This document shows, one piece after another, positions 46,807 to 49,504 of a DNA stretch of 49,673 nucleotides. A program made the translations under genes and the position numbers. Source of the DNA: Terriglobia bacterium (GTDB lineage Bacteria; Acidobacteriota; Terriglobia; Terriglobales; Acidobacteriaceae); NCBI GenBank assembly GCA_020073105.1, contig JAIQFW010000025.1:1-49673 (forward strand). The letters run 5' to 3'. Position 1 is the first letter of the stretch. Each line of letters starts with the position of its first letter. The notes under the pieces were generated by a model. It worked only from the letters and a program-made list of their open reading frames with translations, did not search any database and was not told where the DNA came from.

Positions 46807-47745
46807 ATGCCTGGAGCGGGTAGAGTTCGCGTTGGCACGGCAGGCTGGTCTTACAAGGACTGGGAGGGCATCTTCTACCCTCCAGGAATGCAGCGGCGGA
46901 GGCAGCACCCGCTGGAAATCCTGGCGCGGTGCTTTGACGTCGTCGAGATCAACACTTCATTCTACGGACATATCAAGCCCGAGTTAGCCAGACTGTGGGT
47001 GAAGAAGGTGGAGGCGGTGAATTCCGCTTTCATGTTTACCGCCAAATTGCATCGTTCGTTTACCCATTCTCCCCTGGCGGTGATGGAGCCCACTTCGGCG
47101 GCGACCATCAAACCTACCGACGAGGATGAGCGCCTGGCGCGCGAAGGGCTGGACGCGTTGGCCGCGACCGGCAGGCTGGGAGCGTTGCTGATTCAATTTC
47201 CGTTTTCGTTCAAGAATACGTCGCTCAATCGTGAGTACCTGGAGACGCTGCTACGCCAGTTTATCGAGTATCCCAGGGTGGTCGAAGTGCGCCACGAGAG
47301 CTGGGACAGTCCTGAGACCATTCACGAGTTCGAACAGAAGAATGTTTCCTTCTGCAATATCGATCAGCCGCTGATCGGGCGGTCTTTGGATGCTACCGAG
47401 CACGTGACTTCACCCGTCGGCTATGTGCGGTTGCATGGGCGCAACTACGACCAGTGGTTCGAAGCGGAAAGAGGCGAAGACCGCTACAACTACTTGTACC
47501 CGGAAACCGAACTGGCCGCATGGAAAGATAAGATCAATCGCATGGCGGGGAAGGCCGAGGTGACCTACGTGATCACCAACAATCACTTTGAAGCCAAGGC
47601 CGGAGTGAACGCACTGCAGTTGAAACACATGCTTAGCGGCGAAAGAGTGAAAGCGCCCGAGACGCTGCTGAAGCATTATCCGGAGCTGAAGGGAATCGCC
47701 GACCCCCTACCGGAGGACGAGTCGGACTTGCCGTTGCTGGCGTAA
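46807..47745 (+). CDS. DUF72 (YecE-like) protein
   Basis: The 312-aa TIM-barrel-like protein has the family start VRVGTAGWSYKDWEGIFYPP, followed by EINTSFYGHIKPELARLWVK, FMFTAKLHRSFTHSP, GRLGALLIQFPFSFKNT, VVEVRHESW and GYVRLHGRNYDQWF. DUF72 proteins have unknown activity. The ATG at 46807 lies 55 nt after the MITE-like element. Confidence 0.9.
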   Translation: MPGAGRVRVGTAGWSYKDWEGIFYPPGMQRRRQHPLEILARCFDVVEINTSFYGHIKPELARLWVKKVEAVNSAFMFTAKLHRSFTHSPLAVMEPTSAATIKPTDEDERLAREGLDALAATGRLGALLIQFPFSFKNTSLNREYLETLLRQFIEYPRVVEVRHESWDSPETIHEFEQKNVSFCNIDQPLIGRSLDATEHVTSPVGYVRLHGRNYDQWFEAERGEDRYNYLYPETELAAWKDKINRMAGKAEVTYVITNNHFEAKAGVNALQLKHMLSGERVKAPETLLKHYPELKGIADPLPEDESDLPLLA

Positions 47746-47922
47746 CGGAATAAAGGGCGGCCCACCCGCCGGTTCCTTCCCGATTTGGAAACAGCTTCAT
47801 CGATGATGGTCATCCATCACATCCACTGGCCCCAGAACTGTCCGAGGATCGTTTGGGATCTGTGGTGGGTTCGGCACGCGAGGGTGGGAACGTACTCTAT
47901 TCCGGCCGGCGAAACAGGTAAT

Positions 47923-47996
47923 GGCCCCGTAGCTCAGCCGATAGAGCGCTTAGGTTCGCACCTTAGAGGTCGTGAGTTCGAATCTCACCGGGGCCA
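47923..47996 (+). tRNA. tRNA gene with unusual D-loop and anticodon arm; identity uncertain
   Basis: The 74-nt sequence starts GGCCCCGTAGCTCAGCCGAT and ends GAATCTCACCGGGGCCA. Acceptor (GGCCCCG/CGGGGCC), D-stem (GCTC/GAGC) and T-arm (GTGAG-TTCGAAT-CTCAC) are perfect. The D-loop (AGCCGATA) lacks the usual GG pair, and the region between the D-stem and the variable loop is one base too long. The best anticodon stem (TTAGG/CTTAG, two wobbles) gives loop TTCGCAC and anticodon CGC (Ala), but the third acceptor pair is C-G and not the G-U expected for tRNA-Ala. An Arg-type origin is possible. CCA is not encoded. Confidence 0.75.
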
Positions 47997-48065
47997 CTCT
48001 AGCGCCCAATTACGAAGGTACGTTCTGGCTTGACATCGAATCGAACCAGAGAGAGACTTCAGTTG

Positions 48066-48088
48066 TAAGGTGCGAACCTAAGCGCTCT
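48066..48088 (-). repeat. Inverted 23-bp copy of the tRNA anticodon region
   Basis: This sequence is the perfect reverse complement of tRNA positions 47943-47965 (from the end of the D-stem through the anticodon to the 3' side of the anticodon stem). It lies 100 bp downstream, before the terminator. Confidence 0.9.
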
Positions 48089-48104
48089 GCTTGGGAAAGT
48101 TCTT

Positions 48105-48132
48105 AAGGCGGCCCCACGGCCGCCTTTGTTTT
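48105..48132 (+). terminator. Rho-independent terminator after the tRNA
   Basis: AAGGCGGCC-CCAC-GGCCGCCTT with TTGTTTT after it: a perfect 9-bp GC-rich stem and a U tail. Confidence 0.85.
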
Positions 48133-48177
48133 ATGTAGGCGCGGTCCTCGCCCGGACAATCGATATCCCCACAATCT

Positions 48178-48244
48178 TGTCATCCTGAGCGAAGCATCTC
48201 GATTCGCATTGCGAATCGGGATACGTAGTCGAAGGATCCCTACT
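48178..48244. repeat. Dispersed hairpin repeat (TGTCATCCTGAGCGAAG type)
   Basis: The sequence begins TGTCATCCTGAGCGAAGC and contains the hairpin CTCGATTCGC-ATT-GCGAATCGGG (one wobble), then GTAGTCGAAGGATCCCTA. A related copy with a different hairpin is at 49459. Sequences of this type are frequent in Acidobacteria, as I recall. Confidence 0.6.
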
Positions 48245-49394: not shown

Positions 49395-49458
49395 GGGTAA
49401 GGATTGTACGCTGGGACTCACTCTCCCACATTGCATGCGCGCCGAAATCCCCCATATT

Positions 49459-49504
49459 TGTCATCCTGAGCGAAATGGCCGTTTCGCGAAGCGAAGCGGC
49501 CACG
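49459..49504. repeat. Dispersed hairpin repeat, second copy
   Basis: TGTCATCCTGAGCGAAA is followed by TGGCCGTTTCGC-GAA-GCGAAGCGGCCA (49476-49502), a 12-bp hairpin with one wobble pair. It shares the leading 16 nt with the element at 48178. Confidence 0.6.

Follow-up and report, generated by a model that had tools for sequence, protein, structure and literature searches.

Positions 47923-48132 of the window, by which we mean the whole analysed stretch of 49,673 nt (contig JAIQFW010000025.1 of the Terriglobia bacterium assembly GCA_020073105.1), hold a tRNA-like gene followed by a putative small antisense-RNA gene whose start is complementary to the anticodon arm of its neighbour. This anatomy recurs in three tRNA bodies (families A and B, and module C), and the antisense co-varies with the anticodon arm. 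We lean, with some reserve, towards reading the pair as an RNA-RNA module of toxin-antitoxin-like or stress-release type, in which the antisense would mask the anticodon of a dual-identity, mistranslating tRNA.

The tRNA-like gene (47923-47996; all window features given here lie on the + strand) scored 59.2 bits against Rfam RF00005, exceeding the gathering threshold of 29, and was called tRNA-Ala(cgc) by ARAGORN. Its body carries C3:G70, not the alanine-type G3:U70 of the source genome's other tRNA-Ala(cgc), a canonical gene found elsewhere, and comparison with ordinary tRNAs placed tRNA-Arg bodies nearest to it. CCA is encoded in 42 of the 43 ordinary tRNAs of the source genome and is absent here. 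The scoring check suggested by the initial annotation gave a divided result: the score is above threshold, whereas the missing G3:U70 and CCA argue against an ordinary tRNA. The 12-bp acceptor branch (8/4 or 9/3) of allo-tRNAs is absent, the window gene and family B both being 7/5. Two irregularities already described for the gene were borne out by the alignment of nine family A units. The D-loop lacks GG (CCGATA, compared with GGATA or GGATG in the other eight copies), and the anticodon arm (47949-47966), which folds with a U.U mismatch and the stem AGGU-UCGC-ACCU, has one extra base, measuring 18 nt against 17 in six of the eight others; the remaining two are G061, with 18 nt, and L002, in which the arm is shortened. 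The same alignment delimits a conserved leader of the tRNA-like transcript (47855-47922), for which no clear or convincing consensus fold was obtained; six of the nine leaders contain GGTGCGAA, a sequence able to pair with the anticodon loop; the window leader has one mismatch. A TCATCCATCACA-like motif (47810-47821), seen by eye in eight of the nine units and absent in G146, is a possible part of the tRNA-like promoter.

The exact inverted copy that had drawn attention to the locus was confirmed: 47943-47965, comprising the 3' half of the D-arm and most of the anticodon arm, is 100% complementary to 48066-48088 over 23 bp, 100 nt apart. By arithmetic alone, the chance expectation of a 23-bp match within a few hundred bp is ~1e-9. 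In relatives the target is shorter than these 23 nt and still kept. The complementary segment lies within a candidate antisense small RNA gene (48064-48132) whose 5' end was placed from promoter-like boxes at 48030-48058, consisting of TTGACA (48030-48035), a 17-nt spacer and GAGACT (48053-48058). The -35 box is perfect and the -10 box weak, with 3 of 6 consensus bases. Because a strict consensus scan of 47740-48160 yielded no promoter, the promoter reading draws on conservation in relatives, where the boxes are aligned across family A and likewise across family B, there with a stronger -10. The antisense RNA is predicted to fold a hairpin, CCTAAGC-GCTCT-GCTTGGG (48077-48095), and at the equivalent position L041 and L060 have a different hairpin that is again self-complementary. 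An intrinsic terminator (48105-48132; 48105-48126 plus a T-tract), aligned in family A, would end the antisense RNA and any read-through; it lies 3' of the inverted copy, as first reported, and is the sole terminator-like site on the + strand of 47740-48160. Since no such site separates the tRNA-like gene from the antisense, read-through from the former is possible. Nevertheless, because the promoter-like boxes are kept across families and copies exist without a tRNA, the inverted copy is best read as a separate small antisense-RNA gene, not merely as the tail of the tRNA transcript. Cofolding of the window pair gave -81.5 kcal/mol versus -60.8 kcal/mol for the separate RNAs, favouring the duplex by ~21 kcal/mol. 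The antisense RNAs of the window and of six other loci matched no curated family in Rfam 15, in which the tRNA alone reached a gathering threshold. Farther downstream, the window also contains two copies, 85% alike, of an interspersed repeat, CCC..TTGTCATCCTGAGCGAA (48168-48193 and 49449-49474), and similar stretches are seen at other loci of these genomes.

We identified ten family A modules with both parts, in 8 acidobacterial genomes (the window, L002, G061, G133, G146, G109, G276, two in G065, and G268). The source genome carries family A twice, family B twice and module C once. Family A carries C3:G70, with base 73 variable. In G061 the upstream neighbour of the window's module is retained as well (83% over 289 aa), and in both the window and G061 the antisense matches the extra base (U) of the anticodon arm; in G146, CCAGG in the tRNA is met by CCTGG in the antisense. 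The second family A copy of the source genome, L002 (78% over 220 nt), has lost part of its anticodon arm and kept its antisense intact; this antisense has 15 nt of complementarity to the window tRNA and 8 nt to its own. The rest of the tRNA is conserved at this locus (L002:1517-1720), which may be a toxin-dead, antidote-only copy. The antisense part was matched in 12 of 300 same-family genomes, some matches covering the terminator alone. A 14-mer common to tRNA and antisense occurred at 22 places in 15 of 398 same-family genomes, with 10 places for a reversed control pattern; three of these 15 genomes (G083, G212 and G406) showed no tRNA or small-RNA context and were dropped as chance matches. 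When named genomes were scanned for the tRNA motif, 6 contigs were obtained, each from a MAG titled Acidobacteria, Acidobacteriaceae or Terriglobia. A phage origin was considered, since 17 viral contigs (L078-L094) contain the 14-mer AGGTTCGCACCTTA, and was set aside because, by eye, no tRNA of this type stands in the contexts displayed, the matches being attributable to chance. Addiction modules are often plasmid-borne; no plasmid copy of an A, B or C unit was found.

Family B has a different body (GGGCCYG TGGTGTA..., with G3:U70 and A73) and an antisense of the anticodon arm ~100-150 nt downstream. Its first units were L136 and L137, in the source genome, and L141 (G381), which adjoins an orphan family A antisense. 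By DNA search, 24 of 250 same-family genomes contained the tRNA or the antisense of this type, and a covariance model, R1, was built from 24 family B tRNA-likes. Ordinary tRNAs of the source genome reached at most 57.8 bits with R1, compared with 73.5-93.5 for seven B tRNAs, most of which were training members. Matches were obtained in 38 of 348 same-family genomes and in 11 of 339 genomes of the class, two of the 11 being ordinary tRNAs that were discarded (L199, a tRNA-Lys, and L198, a tRNA-Glu with CCA). The class draw contained modules with antisense in four genomes of a second taxonomic family (L192, L194, L195 and L197) and in one genome of a third (L196). Six matches from a phylum search outside the class were dropped, the two examined (L202 and L203) being ordinary tRNA-Ala(GGC). 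After removal of an ordinary tRNA-Gln (L175) from 51 extracted rows, our counts rest on 50 units; L162 and L172, truncated tRNA-likes without an antisense match, were left out, and 12 further units, with L173 and L248 taken as one, stand outside the 50. Family B units recur upstream of a gene that by eye appears to be rpmB (L154, L155, L162 and L167), where L167 is antisense alone and L162 a truncated tRNA-like alone, so that gain and loss could be followed at this site.

The alanine determinants are nearly invariant in this family. G3:U70 is present in 48 of 50 units, the exceptions being L156, a register effect of an extra base, and L154 (G3:C70), and it stays in L170 although the neighbouring pair is changed; A73 is likewise found in 48 (L229 has G73). 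CCA is encoded in one unit. For four B tRNAs compared with ordinary ones the closest body was tRNA-Ala(ggc), in one case tied with tRNA-Lys over the whole length. The anticodons are mostly those of Asp, Arg or Gly, namely GUC (33 units), GCG (8), AUC (3) and GCC (3); the last three units read TGC (twice, Ala) and TGT (once), probably misread by our automatic rule, which for TGT seems to sit one base off; ARAGORN reads GCC for L179. Drawn with a bulge, the anticodon stem is paired in 92.5% of cells, with double changes in 5/5 pairs, compared with 71.7% for the canonical stem, in which pairs 27-43 and 28-42 fail in 20/24 and 11/24. Eighteen of the 50 units have C or A at position 33. The bulged stem and C33 or A33 are warnings that decoding may be unfavourable, and tRNA-ProX, according to the accessible part of its literature, has A33 yet works. 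Alanyl-tRNA synthetase charges its substrates independently of the anticodon. Its dependence on G3:U70 is stated in the accessible part of a review, and because G3:U70 and not the anticodon is recognised, B tRNAs should carry alanine to Asp, Arg or Gly codons. Family B thus appears to keep alanine identity with foreign anticodons, a dual identity written in its sequence.

Next, we assessed whether each antisense fits its own tRNA. Downstream of the anticodon arm, 44 of the 50 B units have an exact complement to it that measures 10 nt or more, and in 36 it measures 12 nt or more, while non-cognate comparisons between dissimilar B units reached 10 nt in 33 of 2264 cases (mean 6.0 nt; the dropped tRNA-Gln row is included in this control). 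The 12 additional units behaved similarly, eleven with 11-18 nt of exact antisense and L241 with 9. L212, which gave no antisense signal, has an N gap at the antisense position. If G.U pairs and one mismatch are allowed, L156, L224 and L225 pair over 15-22 nt, a length of 15 being reached in 18 of 259 non-cognate comparisons; L161 and L168 pair over just 11-12 bp, which 88 of the 259 also reach. Twenty-six of the 50 units lie outside the loci of the DNA search and 23 of these have exact antisense, therefore the search did not select for it. For 29 ordinary CCA-ending tRNAs, mostly tRNA-Arg of relatives, the longest complement within 250 nt downstream was just 5-9 nt. For the family B antisense promoter, 43 of the 50 units scored 9 or more out of 12 and five others scored 8; of 1000 shuffles, 20 reached 9 and another 109 reached 8. 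Its spacer is 17 nt in 37 of 50. A further, shorter stretch complementary to the anticodon lies in the trailer of the B tRNA (mean 6.4 nt in cognate and 4.7 nt in non-cognate comparisons); in ten units that were folded and judged by eye, it mostly occupies a hairpin loop of the trailer. The initial annotation had raised the possibility that the tRNA is controlled through pairing of its anticodon region with the downstream segment. This pairing is conserved and re-made when the arm changes, which sustains that part of the proposal to the extent that sequence allows; its description as part of the tRNA transcript needs amendment, the segment being more than a transcript tail. The arrangement looked for in related genomes is present there, in families A and B, with the inverted segment conserved; the lack of conservation that the initial annotation had named as refuting was not observed.

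The two parts also differ in how they occur alone. We met seven antisense-only loci in passing, four of family A and three of family B, a tally that is not systematic; the family A antisense without a tRNA of that family is found at L036, L058, L059 and L061. No B tRNA-like clearly lacks an antisense, the only one of the 50 without a signal being that with the N gap. In toxin-antitoxin pairs, the antitoxin gene is generally expected to be able to persist without the toxin, and not the reverse. Seven antisense-only loci without a clear reverse case would fit a toxin-antitoxin-type asymmetry.

A palindromic box of the form TTCCC-N5-GG(R)AA lies upstream of the window tRNA-like gene (47777-47791, 0 mismatches to TTCCCRWWTYGGRAA) and may be an operator or promoter element. 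With up to 3 mismatches, TTCCCRWWTYGGRAA was found 131-150 nt upstream in 8 of 9 family A units and in 29 of 45 family B units, in 28 of them 77-87 nt upstream, compared with 2 of 38 ordinary tRNAs and 20 of 900 shuffles; four units tested from other families matched it, at best, with 3-6 mismatches. Genome-wide, with at most one mismatch, the box occurs 15 times forward and 13 times in reverse (2 and 3 for a reversed control). Besides the two A modules, box sites precede PDDEXK_5 (PF11645) genes, five of them tested in Pfam and L254 judged by eye, and one precedes an HTH gene, assigned from a weak Pfam match that fell below cut-off, whose product might be the regulator; further sites stand at other genes. 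NCBIfam gave no name for the regulator-like protein or for two nuclease-like proteins. The PDDEXK_5 genes and the HTH gene, which have this box in common with the tRNA modules (L252-L255, L258, L265 and L251:1658-2506 in the source genome), look like a regulon with its own regulator.

The box site at L252 revealed a third tRNA-like, the allo-tRNA-like module C, a class that consists of this one locus. It matches RF01852 with 53 bits (gathering 47), is called Tyr(gta) by ARAGORN, has an acceptor that appears Ser-like by eye, and lacks CCA. Its antisense (18 nt, 94%) follows TTGACA-N16-TATGAT. Two successive antisense units are apparent at L252:1530-1850, each with promoter-like boxes and a terminator-like hairpin, and the second antisense-like unit pairs via G.U exchanges.

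The mechanism that we favour treats the two adjacent RNA genes as a lock. RNA 1 would be a non-canonical tRNA without genomic CCA, transcribed from a region with the common palindromic box. A tRNA lacking CCA would mature via RNase Z and CCA addition, and the genome has an RNase Z-like ORF, far below the curated cut-off (93.6 versus 293 bits). RNA 2 would be an antisense RNA of ~65-70 nt, with complementarity at its 5' end to RNA 1's anticodon arm. We infer that a sigma70-type promoter of its own drives constitutive synthesis of RNA 2, which would pair with RNA 1 and hide the anticodon; the bound tRNA-like could not decode because the antisense covers the anticodon loop. In family B, the trailer hairpin with its anti-anticodon may additionally keep the anticodon covered in cis, up to the removal of the 3' end. 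Induction of RNA 1, or decay of RNA 2 faster than that of the stable tRNA, would leave free tRNA to enter translation. Since the bodies of families B and C look like those recognised by anticodon-blind synthetases, this free tRNA should be charged and mistranslate: Ala-identity (G3:U70, A73) or Ser-like bodies with foreign anticodons would insert the wrong amino acid. The outcome might be a toxin and an antitoxin that are both RNAs, the second restraining the first, or a mistranslation switch released under stress; the charging, toxicity, expression and timing of tRNA-likes and antisense RNAs are predictions from sequence. A more specific proposal, which we consider plausible while stopping short of calling it probable, is an RNA-only toxin-antitoxin class combining an Ala- or Ser-body mistranslating tRNA as toxin, a dedicated anticodon-arm antisense as antitoxin and a cis anti-anticodon hairpin, with induction through the palindromic operator alongside PD-(D/E)XK nuclease genes in a stress or defence response.

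Other explanations account for parts of these observations. An inverted att-type scar left by an integrated element, or the decay of a tRNA pair, had been suggested for the window; integration often takes place at tRNA genes, and small indels are present in the window copy. Yet A, B and C, with their unrelated tRNA bodies and in different contexts, all show one order of genes together with promoter boxes and a terminator, which would be unexpected of a scar, and G061 keeps the window's module in place beside its upstream gene. We regard this origin as extremely improbable. Self-control by a single transcript, as put forward in the initial annotation, is improbable as the whole explanation. It would have read-through continue to the terminator and the downstream copy fold back onto the anticodon arm, blocking tRNA maturation. 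Positions 47923-48132 do fold as one long hairpin (-99 kcal/mol versus -67.5 +/- 4.5 for shuffles, z -7), and the missing intervening terminator and the weak -10 box of the window would suit it, whereas the promoter boxes kept directly 5' of the antisense in families A and B, and the seven loci with antisense and no tRNA, argue for an independent RNA; read-through may occur in addition.

That the small RNA has orphan copies, and that its first bases are unpaired in the fold, is also what might be expected of a trans-acting regulator of mRNAs for which the tRNA-like serves as decoy. We regard such a sponge as quite improbable, given that the complementary segment of family B changes with the neighbouring tRNA, which is unexpected for a regulator with conserved mRNA targets. 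A specialist tRNA acting outside translation is unlikely in our estimation, while deserving serious attention: charged with Ala or Ser, it would serve as amino-acid donor or regulatory RNA, with the antisense tuning its level or processing and no toxin involved. The bulged anticodon stems and C33 or A33, which suggest weak decoding, together with the retained acceptor identity, are consistent with this idea, and the available part of the literature on tRNA-Other of B. cereus describes a precedent, a tRNA-like within a larger regulatory RNA outside translation. However, the anticodon loop of such an RNA should drift freely, yet GUC, GCG, AUC or GCC recur; the antisense is aimed at the anticodon arm, not at the acceptor; and antisense-only loci are hard to explain for a benign donor tRNA.

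Bacterial tRNAs with a "wrong" anticodon are known, and their purpose and containment in the cell are an open question. A code-breaking tRNA of this kind is possibly harmful, and the antisense gene resembles a switch or antidote that would keep it in check. An antisense specific to each tRNA, re-matched when the anticodon arm changes, constitutes sequence evidence that the anticodon is a controlled site. Both the mistranslation and the toxin hypothesis can be tested by deleting or expressing one 70-nt RNA. If they are true, antisense masking of the anticodon joins the known ways of tRNA control.

Type VIII toxin-antitoxin systems pair a small-RNA toxin with a small-RNA antitoxin, as in CreTA and SdsR/RyeA. 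An RNA toxin with an RNA antitoxin would work alike in our modules; the difference is that RNA 1 is tRNA-like, the antidote is antisense to its anticodon arm, and the toxicity is predicted. With type I systems, as far as the available text describes them, the modules share an antisense RNA adjoining its target gene, and depart from that type in that the target is a tRNA-like and not the mRNA of a small peptide. The tRNA-Other of Bacillus cereus is similarly a tRNA-like outside the normal set within a longer regulated RNA; an adjacent covarying antisense module is not described for it in the available part of its literature. Among the titles and abstract openings listed, in which subscription papers are mostly absent, we found none that deals with antisense RNAs directed at tRNA anticodons in bacterial modules, and earlier notice of them is possible.

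The closest likenesses are to allo-tRNAs and tRNA-ProX, for which, as for tRNA-Other, we relied on the accessible parts of PMC10365949, PMC11415595, PMC7609411, PMC7590224 and PMC3399842. Allo-tRNAs (8/4 and 9/3, including those of Acidobacteria) resemble our tRNAs in combining non-cognate anticodons with Ser or Ala identity, and GCG and GUC are given there among the most frequent anticodons of the 8/4 type, as in family B. Module C shares the match to RF01852, whereas the 7/5 bodies of families A and B differ. An allo-tRNA amber-suppressor variant is described as toxic in E. coli, as is tRNA-ProX, and one allo-tRNA group as having failed to work in that host. The word antisense does not occur in the accessible part of the allo-tRNA review, and links of some allo-tRNAs to toxin-antitoxin systems are reported, in what is accessible of another, merely as a guess. 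tRNA-ProX and some allo-tRNAs are stated to insert the amino acid of the body, not that of the anticodon; a review describes the role that tRNA-ProX plays in its host as unknown. Like the modules described here, the tRNA-ProX / ProRSx system of Streptomyces and Kitasatospora joins the body of one amino acid to other anticodons and has a rare base 33, A33 there and C33 or A33 in the 18 B units noted above. Our bodies are Ala-, Ser- or Arg-like, unlike that of tRNA-ProX, and mistranslation is a prediction for them. The partner differs as well, a special synthetase being co-encoded with tRNA-ProX and an antisense RNA with the tRNA-likes reported here.
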